Below, one piece after another: positions 33,021 through 63,050 of a DNA stretch of 64,000 bases. The notes under the pieces are model-generated. The model had not been told where the DNA came from and searched no databases. It saw nothing but the letters and a program-made list of their open reading frames with translations. Within the stretch, counting starts at the first letter, position 1; each line of letters starts with the position of its first letter. The position numbers were made by a program, and so were the translations under genes. Origin of the DNA: Chromatiaceae bacterium (lineage in GTDB: Bacteria > Pseudomonadota > Gammaproteobacteria > Chromatiales > Chromatiaceae); the NCBI GenBank assembly GCA_027078745.1, contig JALWWO010000019.1, positions 281,972 to 345,971 of the forward strand, written 5' to 3'.

Positions 33021-33365
33021 ATGTATCCAAGACCTATGGCACTCGCCACCCTCGTTGCCGCGCTGGGAATTTCGTCCGAGACAGCCTTGGCAGGGAATGT
33101 GTCGGCGGGAAAACAGATCGCCACAGATCGTTCCCGAGGCAACTGCATCGCCTGTCATTATCTGCCTGGGGGCCAAAGTCCGGGCAACATCGGCCCAGCG
33201 CTCGTGGGCATTCAAAGCCGCTACCCCACTAAGGAAAGCCTGATGGCACAGATCTATGATGCCACTGTCGCCAATCCAGAAACCATCATGCCGCCCTTCG
33301 GTAGACATCAGATTCTCAGCGACCGGGAACTAGAAGATGTGGTGGAATACATCTGGTCCCTTTGA
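33021..33365 (+). CDS. soxX: Sulfur-oxidising c-type cytochrome SoxX
   Basis: 114 residues with a Sec signal (MYPRPMALATLVAALGISSETALA) and one c-type haem site (NCIACH, about 40-45). An axial methionine is in ETIMPPFG, and the last helix is LSDRELEDVVEYIWSL. SoxX pairs with SoxA in the SoxXA complex, which joins thiosulfate to the SoxY carrier in the periplasm. A strong ribosome site GAGGAGG precedes the ATG. The adjacent soxA and soxK-L genes form one operon; soxYZ and soxB are not in the window. Confidence 0.93.
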   Translation: MYPRPMALATLVAALGISSETALAGNVSAGKQIATDRSRGNCIACHYLPGGQSPGNIGPALVGIQSRYPTKESLMAQIYDATVANPETIMPPFGRHQILSDRELEDVVEYIWSL

Positions 33366-33380
33366 ACCCAGGAGGCAATC

Positions 33381-34217
33381 ATGAAACCAATGTTCGCTAT
33401 TCTCTTAGCGCTGAGCCTCAGTGGGTTCAGTACTCTGGCAGCCGCTGCCACACCGGAACAGGAACAAGCTCTTTGGCAGCGCTACTTCCAAGCCCGCTTC
33501 CCCGATGTACCCTGGGAGGAATTCCCCAACGGGGCCTATGCCATCGATCCCATCGGTCGGGAGAACTGGGAGGCTATCGAAGAGTTCCCTCCCTATGAGA
33601 CGGCCATCTCCGAGGGGGAAGCGCTCTGGAACACACCCTTCGCCGATGGGAAAGGATATGCGGATTGCTTTCCCGACGGGCCGGCGATCATGAATCAATA
33701 TCCCCGCTGGGATCGGGCGCGGGGTATGGTGGTTACCCTCCCCCTGGCCATCAACGAATGCCGGAAGGTTCATGGGGAAAAGCCCCTGAAATACAAAAAA
33801 GGCCCCATCGCCAGCTTGCTCGCCTATATCGGCTATGAGAGCCGAGGGCAGATCATCGACGTGAAGATTCCCAAGGATGATCCTCGCGCCCTAGCAGCCT
33901 ACGAGAAGGGCAAGCAGTTCTACTTCGCCCGCCGGGGCCAGCTCAATTTCTCTTGCGCCCATTGTCATGTCCTCTATGCGGGCTATGTGCTGCGCACCGA
34001 GACCCTGAGCCCCGCACTCGGGCATACCACTCATTTTCCGGTGTACCGATCCAAATGGGGCGAGATGGGCACCCTTCACCGCCGCTATATCGGTTGTAAC
34101 AAACAGGTGCGCGCCAAGCCCTTCAAACCTCAGAGCGAGGAATACCGCAATTTGGAATATTTCATGACCTATATGAACAACGGCTTGCCTCTCAATGCAC
34201 CCGGTGCCCGGAAATAG
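33381..34217 (+). CDS. soxA: Sulfur-oxidising c-type cytochrome SoxA, single-haem type
   Basis: 278 residues with a signal peptide (ending about SGFSTLAAAA). One haem motif (FSCAHCH, about 190-196) is present. The N-terminal half has lone cysteines (YADCFPD and INECRKVHG) instead of a second CxxCH, the arrangement of single-haem SoxA proteins. The sulfur-handling ligand cysteine is in RRYIGCNKQ, followed by the conserved SEEYRNLEYFMTYMNNGL. It combines with SoxX to attach thiosulfate to SoxYZ. AGGAGG lies just upstream of the ATG, and it is 15 bases after soxX. Confidence 0.95.
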   Translation: MKPMFAILLALSLSGFSTLAAAATPEQEQALWQRYFQARFPDVPWEEFPNGAYAIDPIGRENWEAIEEFPPYETAISEGEALWNTPFADGKGYADCFPDGPAIMNQYPRWDRARGMVVTLPLAINECRKVHGEKPLKYKKGPIASLLAYIGYESRGQIIDVKIPKDDPRALAAYEKGKQFYFARRGQLNFSCAHCHVLYAGYVLRTETLSPALGHTTHFPVYRSKWGEMGTLHRRYIGCNKQVRAKPFKPQSEEYRNLEYFMTYMNNGLPLNAPGARK

Positions 34218-34234
34218 GCGGAGGAACTGGAACC

Positions 34235-35188
34235 ATGAAAACCCATCTTTCTGCAACCCTGCTCGCCGGTCTGCTGATCGCTTCCCCGATCAGCCAAGGG
34301 GCAACCAAGATTCAGGCCCTCGATGCCATCGCCGCTGCGGAACAAGCCCGGCAGCGGGCGGCTGCCATCGGGGGAGAATGGCGGGATACGGGCAAGCTCA
34401 TCAAAAAGGCTAAGCAGTCCTTGGAAGCTCATCTGTATACCCAAGCGGTGGAACTGGCTAATCAAGCCCGGCTGCAAGGCAAGCTCGGTTATGAACAAGC
34501 CATGCGCCAGCGCAATGCGGGCTTTCCGCAGTATATGATCGCCTTCGTGGAGAGCCAGCAGGCGGCGGAGATCGCCCGAGCCACTGCTTCCGAAACGACA
34601 AGCGATCAAGGCATTCAGCCCTTCCAAGTACTGCACGACGGAAAGCCCGTCACCATCGCCCGCGCGCACGATAAAAAGGTCCGCCTTCCCCAGGAATTTC
34701 TCCAAGCAGGTCGGCACTGCCCGCCCTTCTGCATTCAGCCCATTCGGGCTGCGGAAGGTGTGGAAACCATCGGGGAATTGGAAATGCTGGATTTCCTGAA
34801 AAAAATGGCGGACGGAAAACCGGTCCTCGTCATCGACAGTCGCACGCCGGAATGGGTGCTGCGGGGCACGATCCCCGGGTCCATCAACATTCCTTGGACC
34901 CAGATCGATCCCCAACAGCAGGGTATGTTCGGCGATCCTGGGGAGGATCGGTTGCGGTCTCTCATGATCGACCGGTTCGGGGTCATGCAGACCGAAGAAG
35001 GCGACCTGGACTTCAGCCAGGCGAAAACCCTGGTGCTCTTCTGCAACGGGCTCTGGTGTGGACAGTCCCATGCGAACATTCGCACCCTGTTGAGAGCGGG
35101 CTATCCGCCGGAAAAGCTCAAATGGTATCGGGGCGGCATGCAGGACTGGGCGGTTGCCGGCTTGACCATCGTGAAGCCGAGCTTCTAG
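34235..35188 (+). CDS. SoxXA-binding protein (SoxK) fused to a rhodanese domain (SoxL-like)
   Basis: 317 residues. A signal peptide (about 1-22) leads to a SoxK/SAXB-type helical domain (about 25-105) with [16 protein letters not shown] and [20 protein letters not shown]. After a linker come a CPPFCIQP motif (162-169) and a rhodanese domain (about 180-317) with [24 protein letters not shown] and the active-site loop CNGLWCGQS (Cys270 is the expected catalytic cysteine). SoxK stabilises SoxXA, and SoxL-type rhodaneses move sulfane sulfur. Elsewhere these are usually two genes. The stop TAG shares bases with the convergent metH stop. Confidence 0.85.
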
Positions 35189-38876: not shown

Positions 38877-40523
38877 CTAGGGAGAGACGGCTAAGCAGGG
38901 GCGGTGGGGCGCTTGCACATTGCAGATCCGGCCCTCTACCTGCGGGGCGATGCCCTGGGGTTCCGCCGCTCGCAGGGCTTGGATCACCAGGGTTTTGAGT
39001 GCCGGCCCCTGGTCCGGCGGCACCAAGACTTGCGCGCGGTTCAGCATTACATAGCCATCCTGCCCCCGAGCGGGGTTCAGGAGAAACCCGTTGGTAACCG
39101 CTAGGATCATTTCATCGGGCCGCACCGGCCGGGGGCCTTCCGGCGTCAACAGGGTCAGATCATAGGCCCGTTCCTCCTCGGGATCCTGACGGAAGGCGAA
39201 GCCCGCGATCTGCAGCCACCAGCCGTTGCCCGTCCAGTCCTGCACTGCATGATCGACGATTTGTTGCAAGGTACGACCCCGGATGCGAATCAGGCCTAAG
39301 GGGGTCGGGTAGGGAAGGAGTTGGGCAAGGTGCGTCTGGGTGAGGGCAGTGCCTGCGGGAAGGTTCTGATTCAGACGCAGGCCGCCGGCGTTGAGAAAGG
39401 CGATCTGCGCGCCCTGTTCCCGAAAGGCGGCCAAGGCCTGATCCGCCAGCCAGTTCCCCAGATTGGTTTCCCACTTCCGAATCTGCAATTCTTCCCCGAT
39501 CAAGGGCACTTGGGTATGACCTAGGGGTTTGGCGAGGCAGTCTTCCGGTTTGCCCTGTGCTTTGCACTGATCCCGCCGATAGCGAGCCCACCAGTCTTCC
39601 ACCCGTTTTTCCAGATCGGGATCCGGCGGAATGCTGGCATCTAAGGTGATGAACTGGGGCTGGATCCGGATCTTGCCCTGGCAATCCAGTTGGATGCGCA
39701 CCTGACCCGCGGTGCGGGCGTCCGCATCCGCCTTGATGACCAGGCGATGACCGGAGGCCCGGTGGATCTGCCGGTCGTGCTCATGGCCGCCGACGATGAG
39801 ATCCGGCCCCTCCTCTTCCAGGGTTTCCAAGATGGCCCGATCCCGACGGGCTCTCAGATGGGTGAGGGCGATGACCACCTCCGCCCCCTGCTGCCGCAGG
39901 GCTTCGCTATAGTGCCAAGCGGTTTCCAAGGGATCGGAAAATTCCGATACATATTGGGGATGCTTTCGCTCCGTGGTGAGGCTGAACAGGCCGATGCGCA
40001 TCCCCCCGCTTTCCACAAGCGCTGTTTTTTCCAGTTGCTTCGCTGCGATCAAGGGTTTGCCCGACGGATCCCGATCGAAATGCACATTGGTGCCGAGCCA
40101 ACGAAACTGAGATTCCGCGATGCGCTGCTGCAACAGGGCAGCATCTTCCCGCCGAGACCGGTCAAATTCATGATTGCCGAAGGTGACGAACATGCGTGCA
40201 TCGAAGGCTTGAGGATCGCCGTCCAATCGGTTCATGAGGTCGATGATCTGGGCGCCCTGATATCGACGGCTCAGGACCGAGGGAAAGAGAAAGTCTCCGG
40301 CGTGCAGCAGGAGGAGATCCGGCGCTTCCCGTTCCAACTGCTTCCGCAGGGTGCGCAGGCGGGGCAGTCCGCCGAGCGCCCCCCCGTTCAACCCGCCGAT
40401 TTGGTACACATCATTGATTGCTAGAATGGTGGCGGTGCGGCTGCCGGAACAGGGATCGGCAAACCCGTTCAACCCGATGCTGAGGAACCCTATGAACAGA
40501 CTGGCTTGAAAGATGGATCGCAT
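38877..40523 (-). CDS. Periplasmic 5'-nucleotidase family (UshA-like) metallophosphatase
   Basis: 548 residues. A Sec signal ([22 protein letters not shown]) precedes the metal domain: [28 protein letters not shown] and GGHEHD. The C-terminal substrate domain has [29 protein letters not shown] and LLPYPTPL. It probably removes phosphate from nucleotides or other organic phosphates in the periplasm. SoxB belongs to the same superfamily, but this gene is not beside soxXA and lacks an evident Tat signal. It lies 5 bases upstream of metH and may provide adenosine or phosphate salvage; this link is inferred. Confidence 0.85.
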
Positions 40524-46285: not shown

Positions 46286-46591
46286 ATGAAAAATAAACTC
46301 AAACGATTTGCAACTGCTTTTCTCCCTGTCTCCAAGGCGAGGCGCGGTTCCTGTAATCGTTGCGGAGAATGCTGCAAGCTCCCCTTTCCCTGTCCCTTTC
46401 TGCGGTACGATGAACAGGGCCTGAGCAGCTGCGCAGTCTACTACGCCCGCCCCCTGAGCTGCCGGAAGTATCCACGTACCCCAGAAGAGAATCTGACAGC
46501 GGAAACCTGTGGTTACTATTTCGTCAGTACGGACGAGGCAGAGGAATTGAAGAAATTCGTGCCGGCACCGGCGGCGGATAAGACTGCTTAA
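46286..46591 (+). CDS. YkgJ-family cysteine-cluster protein
   Basis: 101 residues with the metal-chelating cluster [18 protein letters not shown] (about 22-40), followed by [17 protein letters not shown] and ETCGYYF, the typical cysteine spacing of the UPF0153 family. These proteins bind zinc or iron-sulfur; the role is not known. The N terminus is basic and amphipathic ([12 protein letters not shown]). Its TAA overlaps the rnhA stop (TTAA) on the other strand. Confidence 0.85.
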
Positions 46592-47178
46592 GCGGTGGGA
46601 ATCCCGCGATTGGCCAGCTGATCCGCCCGTTCATTCTCCGCATAACCCGCATGGCCGCGCACCCAACGCCAATCGACCCTATGATGGGACGCATGGTAGG
46701 AAACCAGCTGATCTAAGCGTTTCCATAAATCTTGGTTCTTCACCGGTTTCCGATCCGCAGTGCGCCAGCCGTTCTTCTTCCAACGGGGCATCCATTGGGT
46801 AATTCCCTGATGCACATATTGGGAATCTGTCGCGATCTGCACGCGCATGGGCCGTCTCAGGGGTTTTAACCCCTGGATCACCGCCCTGAATTCCAGAGTT
46901 TCCTGCCTCTGGACAACCCGAGAATCCGTCGTAATCTGCACGCGCATCGGCTGTTTCAAGGTTTCCAGCTCCTGGATAACGGCCATGAATTTCAAGATTT
47001 CCAGCCCTTGAATGACCGCCATGAGTTCCATGCGGTTGTTCGTCGTATGGACTTCCCCGCCATAAAATTCATACTGTTTCCCACCTTCAGCACGTAGCAA
47101 AACCCCCCATCCTCCCGGGCCCGGATTGCGTTTGCAAGCACCATCGGTGAACAACTCGACCTTTCGCGATTCAACCAT
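46588..47178 (-). CDS. rnhA: Ribonuclease HI with an internal duplication
   Basis: 196 residues, about 45 longer than the usual 150-155. It cuts RNA in RNA-DNA hybrids. The fold runs normally from the start ([18 protein letters not shown], Asp12) to [11 protein letters not shown] (Glu51). Next come two extra partial repeats: [21 protein letters not shown] (65-85) and its companion [20 protein letters not shown] (99-118). The chain then returns to normal ([24 protein letters not shown]; His176, Asp186). Asp118 looks the native active-site residue and Asp85 its copy. Whether the folded enzyme is active is unknown. It overlaps the upstream methyltransferase by 8 bases. Confidence 0.9.
46855..46989 (-). 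repeat. Diverged internal duplication in rnhA (45 codons)
   Basis: Minus-strand codons about 64-108 of rnhA are extra. A 33-residue unit (about 65-97) is repeated at 98-130 with conserved core PMRVQI-x-TDS, and a shorter 12-residue copy ([11 protein letters not shown]) precedes both. The copies differ at several positions, so the duplication is not recent. Exact limits are approximate because the copies have diverged. Confidence 0.8.
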
Positions 47179-60065: not shown

Positions 60066-60161
60066 TGTTTTCTCCGTTCAGCTGGTGTACAGGCTGGTAA
60101 ACACCCCTGTATCATGCGCAGGGACTGGGAATCAACACTCATTTTTAAGCGAGGGAGGAGG

Positions 60162-63050
60162 ATGTTTCGCAAACTGATCCTGGCGTCTGCGGTTTCGTTA
60201 GCCCTCTTACCGGGAACCTCTTGGTCGCTGGGTCTCGGCGGAATCCGCACCCAATCGGCGCTCAACGAGCCCTTCCTGGGAGAAATTGACCTCTACGAGG
60301 TTAAGCCGGATGAACTGGACAGCGTTAAGGTGCGCCTCGCTCCCAAAGAAGAATTTGAAAAAGCAGGTTCCCCTTGGTCTACTGCGCTGAGTAAATTGCG
60401 CTTTCAAGCCCGTCCCGCAGGTTCCGGCGCAGTCATCGAGATCACGAGCAAGGAACCGGTCCGTGAGCCTTATTTGGATTTCCTCATCGAAGTGATCTGG
60501 CCCCAGGGCCGCATGGTCAAAGGGTATACGGTACTCTTAGATCCCCCCGTTACGCTGAAGAGTCTGTCTCCCCAAGTTCCGCTGAGCGCAGCTGCAAAAA
60601 CGACCCGCCGAGCTGCACCGCCCCGAGATCGAACGGGCTATCCCCTTCGCTATGGACCCGTGAAACCGGGGGATAGCCTGTGGAAGATCGCACGCACTCT
60701 GGCACCAGCAGGTGCTACCATCGCACAGACTGCCATGGCGATTTATCGGACTAACCAGAATGCCTTTATCCGAGGCAATATCCACCGGCTTCGGCAAGGC
60801 GTCCTTTTGGAGATCCCCACACCAGAAGAACTGTTCGCCCTAGATGTCCGCAGTGCGCAAAGGGAGTTTTCCAACGCCCTCGCCGGTCGTCGAGTCACCG
60901 CATCCCCCCTCACGGACATCACTCAGTCCAGGCTAGAAATCGCTGCAGCGCCTTCCCCTGAGACGGCACGAATGCCCATATCTGCTTCGGGAGGGGCTGC
61001 AGGTCCTGGGAGAACAGCAGAATTCGACGCATTGCAACGGGAATTGTTGCTGGTTCAGGAATCGGCGGAAACCAATAAGCAGGAAGCCGAAGAACTGCGC
61101 GCCCGTGTCCGGGAACTAGAAAGTCAGCTCAATGACATCAGAATGCTCTTGAAGCTGCGCAATGAGCAGATCGCACAACTCCAATCCTTGCAATCCAATC
61201 GCAGTCCCGCACCACCGGAGCCTTCGGTGGTGGCAATGCACACTCAAGAAGTACCCCTGGGCATAGGCGAGGCACTTCCGGCCCAGGGGATCGCTGCGGA
61301 ACCACCAGAGCCAGCGGCGGAGTCTTCAGCGTCTGAAGAAGCCGGCGAAGAAACCGCTCCCACTGTGCCCGATGCGGCGGAGTATCCGGATGTAGCGATG
61401 TACCCGCCTGAGGTGCTGCAACCGCCCGTGGAGGAAATACAACCTCCCGCTGAGTTGCCGGAATTGGGCGGGGAAACAGATCAGGAGATCAACGTTCTGG
61501 ATCTCGGAGGAACTTCCGAACCCACAACCACTGTACCGGAACAGCCCGATGCGCAGGTCTTTTTCCCACCAGCGGAGGAAACAGGACCATTGCCAGCGGA
61601 GACTATGCCCCAGGAAATCGCTGTACCTCAGGAAATCACTGTACCTCAGGAGACAAGCGAACCTCAGGTTACAGACCGCCTTCCACCCGTCGGTCCCGTA
61701 TCTGAAACGGCTGTTCCGGATACAGCAGTACCGCCGAAAGAACTTCCAGGTATCTCGCAGAAACCTGCGGTTACTCCCTCCGACACCTTTTCTTTGAGCA
61801 ACCTTTCTTTACCCCTGTTAGGCGCTGCTGCAGGCATTCCCATCGGCCTCGGCTTGCTCGGTTTCTGGTGGATGCGGCGGAAGAAGGTAGAGGAGGAAGA
61901 AGAATTCTTGCTATCCCCTACCCCGACGAGCACGGGATTGGATACGTCGGAACCCAGTCCGGATGCGGATACAGAGAGCTTCGACAGCAACTTACCCCCG
62001 AGCACGGACTCCTTCAGTTTGGACAAGGACACAGAGGAGGCCGATGTCCTTTCCGAAGTAGATGTCTACCTGGCCTTTGGTCGCTATCGGGAAGCGGAGA
62101 ATTTGCTCAAGGAAGAGCTCCAGACAACACCGGACCGGCTGGAGCTCAAATTCAAGCTCGCCGAGGTCTATCACGGCAGCGAGAATCTGAAGGATTTGAT
62201 GGCCTTGCGCGAAGAGTTGCGCAAGGCAGAAGCAGAAACGCGGTATCCCGATCTTTGGAAACAGCTTAACCGCTGGGTATCGGAACTGGCTGAGCAATCT
62301 CAGCCCCAGGATGAAGTACCTCCGTCAGAGTCCGAACCCCTGGATATTCCTTCCTCCACCCCGACGACCAGCGAGTTGGATACGATCCAACAACCGATCT
62401 CCGAGACAGCCTCGGAAACCTCCGAGATGACTGCACCCTTTGAGCTATCTGCTCTGGCGGAAGGGCCTTTTACGGAAGAACCCTCCTCCCTACCCTCGGG
62501 ACTTTCGGAAGAGATTCTTCCCCACCCGAGCCCGAGCAGCCAGAGCAAGAGCATCGGCATGGATCTCTCTTCGGTACAAGGGGAGCTGGATACAAGCGAT
62601 GATCTAGATGACATTGCCTCTACCTTCCCTGAGGAAGAAGAGACGATCACTGCAGAGGATCAACGGGATACTCTGCGGGTGGATGGTTCCTCCGTCTTCG
62701 ATTCCCGCATGGATGACTCAGAGTCGCGCTCTCCAGAATCCTCGGTTCCCAGCACTTCGGCAGAAGGCATCACTCCGTCGGATTCCACAATCCAGACCAC
62801 CGAGAATCTGGACCCCTTCAGTGAGGGGGTCGGCACCAGCGAATCTGAAGCGAATGATGTGTTCTCTTCTCAGTGGGATATGGATTCTGGCCTCTGGGAT
62901 GAGACGGGCACGAAACTCGACCTTGCCCGCGCCTATATGGAAATGGAAGACACGGAGGCTGCTCGAGAGATCCTCGAAGAAGTCATCGCGGATGGAAACG
63001 AGCAGCAGAAAAAAGAAGCGCAAGAGATGCTGAAAAGGCTCGAACAGTAG
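60162..63050 (+). CDS. fimV: FimV-type motility and pilus hub protein
   Basis: 962 residues. Signal peptide (MFRKLILASAVSLALLPGTSWS), a FimV N-terminal domain (about 23-130: LGGIRTQSALNEPFLGEIDLYEV), a LysM peptidoglycan-binding domain (about 165-225: RYGPVKPGDSLWKIARTL), coiled coil (about 290-340), a long acidic Pro/Glu linker, one transmembrane helix (about 545-570), and an acidic cytoplasmic region with a TPR-like part (about 625-700) and the C-terminal FimV TPR (TKLDLARAYMEMEDTEAAREILEEVI). FimV localises to the pole and stimulates cAMP and type IV pilus assembly. Start ATG at 60162 after GGGAGGAGG. Between aroB and truA. Confidence 0.95.
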   Translation: MFRKLILASAVSLALLPGTSWSLGLGGIRTQSALNEPFLGEIDLYEVKPDELDSVKVRLAPKEEFEKAGSPWSTALSKLRFQARPAGSGAVIEITSKEPVREPYLDFLIEVIWPQGRMVKGYTVLLDPPVTLKSLSPQVPLSAAAKTTRRAAPPRDRTGYPLRYGPVKPGDSLWKIARTLAPAGATIAQTAMAIYRTNQNAFIRGNIHRLRQGVLLEIPTPEELFALDVRSAQREFSNALAGRRVTASPLTDITQSRLEIAAAPSPETARMPISASGGAAGPGRTAEFDALQRELLLVQESAETNKQEAEELRARVRELESQLNDIRMLLKLRNEQIAQLQSLQSNRSPAPPEPSVVAMHTQEVPLGIGEALPAQGIAAEPPEPAAESSASEEAGEETAPTVPDAAEYPDVAMYPPEVLQPPVEEIQPPAELPELGGETDQEINVLDLGGTSEPTTTVPEQPDAQVFFPPAEETGPLPAETMPQEIAVPQEITVPQETSEPQVTDRLPPVGPVSETAVPDTAVPPKELPGISQKPAVTPSDTFSLSNLSLPLLGAAAGIPIGLGLLGFWWMRRKKVEEEEEFLLSPTPTSTGLDTSEPSPDADTESFDSNLPPSTDSFSLDKDTEEADVLSEVDVYLAFGRYREAENLLKEELQTTPDRLELKFKLAEVYHGSENLKDLMALREELRKAEAETRYPDLWKQLNRWVSELAEQSQPQDEVPPSESEPLDIPSSTPTTSELDTIQQPISETASETSEMTAPFELSALAEGPFTEEPSSLPSGLSEEILPHPSPSSQSKSIGMDLSSVQGELDTSDDLDDIASTFPEEEETITAEDQRDTLRVDGSSVFDSRMDDSESRSPESSVPSTSAEGITPSDSTIQTTENLDPFSEGVGTSESEANDVFSSQWDMDSGLWDETGTKLDLARAYMEMEDTEAAREILEEVIADGNEQQKKEAQEMLKRLEQ
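61610..61668 (+). repeat. Short tandem repeat in fimV (PQEI-[A/T]V units)
   Basis: Three to four consecutive 18-base units encoding Pro-Gln-Glu-Ile/Thr-x-Val-like hexapeptides (PQEIAV, PQEITV, PQETSE) in the periplasmic linker. The bases are nearly identical between copies 2 and 3 (GTACCTCAGGAAATC), so copy number could vary between strains. Confidence 0.6.

Follow-up and report, generated by a model that had tools for sequence, protein, structure and literature searches.

An RNase HI with an In-Frame Tandem Duplication of Helix A and Strand 4 in a Chromatiaceae Bacterium

Introduction

Ribonuclease HI (RNase HI), which clears away RNA strands paired with DNA, is an ordinary enzyme and serves as a standard model in studies of protein folding and of catalysis by metal ions. 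In bacteria it is encoded by rnhA and is described by the family models PF00075 and NF001236. The rnhA product reviewed here resembles other bacterial RNases HI in its family score, catalytic residues, and core fold, as well as in helix B, the Trp-rich stretch that follows helix B, and the C-terminal half. Two features set it apart: an additional 45 residues that repeat helix A and strand 4, which none of 32 closely read relatives has, and a further 4 residues at positions 160–163. Searches of open-licence papers by title and abstract listed none on an RNase HI that is internally duplicated.

Internal duplications have been described in other proteins. An engineered tandem duplication of a helix, reportedly from the Matthews laboratory, is said to be tolerated in T4 lysozyme, and it is similar to the present case in being an internal tandem copy of a secondary-structure element in a globular enzyme; the rnhA repeat, in contrast, is natural, diverged, and includes the catalytic strand. 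In engineered alternate-frame-folding proteins (barnase and others), two folds are made to compete by duplicating a segment that carries a functional residue (PMC10018487). The likeness is that functional residues are also doubled in the rnhA product (Asp85/Asp118 and Glu51/Glu96), so that two registers could compete, and the difference is that the engineered copy sits at a terminus with a linker, whereas the rnhA copy is a natural internal tandem known from sequence. Natural in-frame duplications with an effect occur in the v1 loop of TRIM5alpha, including one of 20 codons in African green monkeys (PMC12230231). They are alike in being kept in the protein but concern a flexible recognition loop, unlike the alpha/beta core element duplicated in the rnhA product. 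The latter would be a ready test of whether a small alpha/beta fold absorbs a duplicated helix–strand unit by looping, by an added strand, or by a register switch; if the unit is only looped out, the protein is an example of tolerance and is otherwise ordinary.

The rnhA Gene and Its Genome Context

The window, i.e., the whole stretch of 64,000 nucleotides that was analyzed, contains rnhA on the reverse strand. The features of the gene, with the evidence by which each was defined, are as follows:

46588..47178, reverse strand: rnhA, RNase HI, 196 codons (open reading frame call, NCBIfam, and Pfam)
46855..46989, reverse strand: 45-codon insert, residues 64–108, between helix A and strand 4 (unpaired against 28 relatives; spacing fixed in 32 of 32)
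46906..47004, reverse strand: first 33-codon unit, codons 59–91, with helix A copy 2, a strand 4 copy (Asp85), and a turn remnant (repeat comparison)
46807..46905, reverse strand: second 33-codon unit, codons 92–124, with helix A copy 3, strand 4 (Asp118), and the start of helix B (repeat comparison)
46990..47031, reverse strand: helix A copy 1, codons 50–63, with the likely catalytic Glu51 (codon offsets, alignment, and family score)
46954..46995, reverse strand: helix A copy 2, codons 62–75, at the 12-codon offset, with Lys63 at the Glu51 position (codon offsets)
46855..46896, reverse strand: helix A copy 3, codons 95–108, with Glu96 at the Glu51 position and Pro107 near its end (codon offsets and family score)
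46921..46953, reverse strand: loop and strand 4 copy 2, codons 76–86, with Asp85 (codon offsets, family score, and drift simulation)
46822..46854, reverse strand: loop and strand 4 copy 3, codons 109–119, with Asp118 (codon offsets, family score, model, and drift simulation)
46690..46701, reverse strand: separate 4-codon insertion, residues 160–163 (SYHA) (alignments with relatives)

The product is an RNase HI, as a preliminary description made from the DNA letters had proposed. It matches the NCBIfam ribonuclease HI equivalog NF001236 with 231.5 bits (cut-off 160) and Pfam PF00075 with 168.3 bits (cut-off 25.8), carries the DEDD carboxylates and the histidine, and has the RNase H fold. Residues D12, E51, D118, D186, and H176 occupy invariant columns in an alignment of 13 rows (the rnhA product and 12 relatives), and the likely catalytic set is D12, E51, D118 (or D85), and D186. 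The counterparts in E. coli RNase HI are the DEDD carboxylates D10, E48, D70, and D134, together with H124. The predicted activity of the rnhA product is cleavage of RNA in RNA–DNA hybrids.

The source genome (2.18 Mb, 24 contigs, 97.17% complete) is the only one of its genus in the set used. A genome-wide search gave one RNase HI match, which is rnhA itself; a second normal rnhA, named in the preliminary description as part of a finding that would speak against its reading, was not found in this search of all 24 contigs. The same genome has one RNase HII gene; its best match to dnaQ is on a different contig (C19). A small cysteine-rich open reading frame at 46286–46591, for which there was no NCBIfam match, is convergent with rnhA, and the ends of the two overlap by 4 bases at the rnhA stop.

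Architecture of the Internal Repeat

The in-frame repeat in rnhA is real. At the DNA level it appears as a pair of 96-nt direct repeats with 74% identity and a spacing of 99 nt, and at the codon level as a 33-codon tandem repeat comprising codons 59–91 and 92–124. When the gene is compared with itself, an offset of 33 codons pairs 58–86 with 91–119, an offset of 12 codons pairs 50–63 with 62–75, which is the recurring part of helix A, and an offset of 45 codons pairs 50–58 with 95–103. In frame, the repeat scores 35 at best, while codon shuffles (n = 300) reach at most 11.5. The 33-residue unit present twice and the 12-residue piece present once more, as originally noticed, are thus borne out. 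In a screen of 55 mechanically called open reading frames of the window, each compared with the maximum of 20 shuffles, only two exceeded that maximum by more than 5, namely rnhA and the frame at 60114–63050.

When the product is aligned with 28 relatives by MAFFT, residues 64–108 stay unpaired, and these correspond exactly to the interval 46855–46989 first proposed for the duplication. The copies of helix A are not equivalent at the catalytic position, Glu51 recurring as Lys63 in copy 2 and as Glu96 in copy 3, and the TTNNR stretch is absent before Glu96 in copy 3.

Distribution among Relatives

The comparison with close relatives that the preliminary description had suggested shows that none of those searched carries the insert. 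An RNase HI search at the family level matched 202 of 210 genomes, the source genome included. A single joined match (449 bits) is seen for the source genome only; the next best genome reaches 141 bits, and the other family genomes have two matches each in the per-genome table, except for G015 with four and G185 with three. The four matches of G015 were considered as an extra duplication and rejected, being two separate loci, and G185 was likewise rejected as an independent duplication, its third match lying on a different contig, in an open frame of 63 residues. The weaker genomes of the family were judged from such per-genome match counts, and positions were taken only among the matches listed.

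The relatives that were read closely number 32 and consist of the best 29 other genomes together with G219, G095, and G185. In all 32 the stretch from the TTNNRME motif to just past the catalytic TDS is 40 residues long, so that the link between helix A and strand 4 has a fixed length in them, as opposed to 45 extra residues in the rnhA product. The long link is a variation and not a defining feature of RNase HI membership.

Beyond the family, a 65-residue query covering the insert region matched 1 of 369 genomes in a sample of the class and 1 of 398 in a sample of the phylum; the two samples overlap, and the match is the source genome in both. A scan of viral contigs found no relative and no copy of the insert, and a scan of genome contigs with the whole protein gave 16 loci, the insert being absent in all 12 that were aligned. 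The RNases HI of four spirochaete metagenome-assembled genomes (L042–L045) have approximately 15 extra residues between strands 2 and 3, in a place other than that of the residues 64–108 insert.

Origin and Age of the Duplication

Both rnhA copies contain the PMRVQI motif, which none of the 32 relatives has; this indicates that the copies derive from one another in this lineage and not from a foreign rnhA. The same motif makes a foreign source unlikely for an assembly artefact in which two rnhA pieces were joined. In favor of such an artefact is that the assembly is split into 24 contigs; however, only one rnhA was found in the genome search, the copies differ by 26% in DNA, and the frame is kept across the join, which together leave an artefact extremely unlikely. 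The insert and the remainder of rnhA have the same G + C content (0.541 and 0.546, respectively).

Over 28 codons, the two copies show 11 synonymous and 10 replacement differences, with a dN of 0.174 and a dS of 1.027 by NG86; for one comparison, YN00 gives a dN of 0.179 and a dS of 2.284. Synonymous sites are near saturation (dS 1.03 versus dN 0.17), so the long form of rnhA is old, in agreement with the earlier proposal that the copies have diverged and that the long form has been kept over time. The codons TTC, ATC, and CAG are common to copies 2 and 3 and do not occur in copy 1. The 33-codon event therefore looks later than the 12-codon event, and this suggests the order in which the smaller duplication came first.

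In a tree of 41 rows, which include 40 of the 44 loci L002–L045 (L007, L008, L016, and L030 were left out), the rnhA product without its insert groups with sequences of the same family, with a support of 87/79 that is not firm. Its end branch is 0.55 in comparison with a median of 0.21, and the alignment with relatives shows separate small indels at residues 160–163 and near residue 32. The long branch, the additional small indels, and the one RNase HII gene of the genome would fit a decaying or inactive enzyme, in which the presence of RNase HII relaxes selection on rnhA and the insert counts as one scar among several that have been tolerated. On the other hand, the 196-codon frame is open, the catalytic set is intact, and the lone genus may by itself explain the long branch. 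Given also the drift simulations described below, a decaying enzyme is distinctly unlikely.

Selection and Family Fit of the Copies

How well each segment fits the RNase HI family was scored with 29 relatives as the reference. The scores are 44.0, 32.8, and 28.2 for helix A copies 1, 2, and 3, respectively, and the 11-residue loop–strand segments score 32.5 for the one with Asp85 and 31.1 for the one with Asp118. For helix B, residues 120–129 after Asp118 score 40.3 and residues 87–96 after Asp85 score −0.6; in the latter, the helix B resemblance has been lost (shuffle P 0.13). By these scores, the catalytic strand has been kept twice and helix B once. The claim that the active-site aspartate is doubled thus holds for the sequence, where both Asp85 and Asp118 are found, but not for the surroundings, since a recognisable helix B follows only Asp118.

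Neutral evolution of both copies was rejected, as simulated drift rarely gave so few replacements (P 0.000–0.015), which argues against the decaying enzyme; neutrality of one copy, with P 0.035–0.305 over five divergence settings, is not firmly rejected. When the segments are taken separately, a single neutral copy has P 0.010–0.094 for the strand part (11 codons) and P 0.110–0.454 for the helix part in the settings reported. In the 11-codon strand segment, copies 2 and 3 differ by 4 synonymous and 2 replacement changes, and this is suggestive, short of proof from 11 codons only, of constraint acting on both strand copies. Across residues 65–86, 29 of 32 relatives are closer to copy 2 than to copy 3, with 2 ties and 1 opposite case, although these relatives are non-independent; this closeness and the few strand replacements would argue against a useless loop and count against the loop reading favored below.

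The same observations bear on a sheet expansion, in which the extra helix–strand unit is built in as a sixth strand beside strand 4, both Asp-bearing strands are structural, and the edge of the active site is reshaped. Such an expansion would account for the nearly equal family fit of the strand copies, for their small amino acid difference while synonymous sites differ, and for the fact that the repeat is one whole helix–strand unit.

Predicted Structure and Proposed Mechanism

The rnhA product was modeled with AlphaFold2 from the 13-row alignment, giving a mean pLDDT of 83.0 and a pTM of 0.80. The model has one long helix at 47–73, a helix at 92–103, and a strand at 112–117 that ends before Asp118; residues 80–96 are under pLDDT 50, and no strand is drawn at 76–86. 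In the PDB it matches E. coli RNase HI entries best, with a TM of approximately 0.84 by target length. The model was built with the sequences of relatives, and the input alignment has gaps across most of the insert, so its choice of register is not independent. The model thus indicates that the RNase HI fold can accommodate the insert and does not tell which copy is used. A single-sequence model places strands at 78–84 and 111–117, but its mean pLDDT of 38.8 is too low for it to be used.

The extra strand at the edge of the sheet, which the preliminary description had envisaged, is not seen in the model, although the gapped alignment biases it in that respect. The change in hybrid specificity raised alongside it is speculative. 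From the geometry of the fold, moreover, an added strand could be housed only by displacing strand 5 or by separating strand 4 from strand 1. Despite the features of the strand copies that favor it, a sheet expansion is unlikely.

It is also conceivable that copies of helix A and strand 4 vie for one place in the core, giving at least two interchangeable folds that use Glu51 or Glu96 and Asp85 or Asp118. Core-compatible residues and a possible catalytic aspartate are kept in each copy, and engineered switches are designed on the same principle, with a segment that holds a functional residue present twice (PMC10018487). Against such competing registers stand the loss of helix B after Asp85, the lysine (Lys63) in place of glutamate in copy 2, the lack of TTNNR before Glu96 in copy 3, and the expectation that use of Asp85 would place 33 extra residues as a loop directly beside the active site. 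Competition between registers is accordingly very unlikely, and marginally less likely again is its extension to a natural alternate-frame-folding protein, in which the registers would differ in activity or substrate and selection would therefore keep both strand copies.

The reading that we favor, and consider probable, is a working RNase HI that uses Glu51 and Asp118 and in which Asp85 belongs to a loose excursion. The protein would be the single, vertically inherited RNase HI of the source bacterium, in whose lineage tandem in-frame duplications would have occurred, first of a helix A piece (12 codons) and then of a helix A–strand 4 unit (33 codons). A normal RNase HI fold would be formed from helix A copy 1 with Glu51, strand 4 copy 3 with Asp118, and the intact helix B, and catalysis would be carried out by D12, E51, D118, and D186. 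Helix A would be lengthened, continuing into copy 2, and the remainder of the insert, including Asp85, would loop out, loosely ordered, on the face opposite the active site. The repeat, its age, its confinement to this lineage, and the intactness of the catalytic set are established, whereas the order of the two events, the activity, the register, and the looseness of the insert are inferred. We infer from the fold that its placement in the link between helix A and strand 4 keeps the insert away from the active site.

Other Loci in the Window

The region 33021–35188 contains a SoxX gene (93.8 bits, cut-off 61) and a SoxA gene (244.7 bits, cut-off 110), by which the source organism is probably a sulfur oxidiser. 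The start of the open reading frame that follows them within this region resembles a SoxAX-binding protein, with 74.9 bits, below the cut-off of 95. At 38877–40523, a 548-residue 5'-nucleotidase-like protein is encoded, whose match to the thiosulfohydrolase SoxB is weak (56.6 bits, cut-off 550). The second repeat-bearing frame of the window, at 60114–63050, has 978 codons and is, we presume, FimV-like; its in-frame repeat has a 6-codon offset at codons ~499–513 (score 23, null maximum 15).
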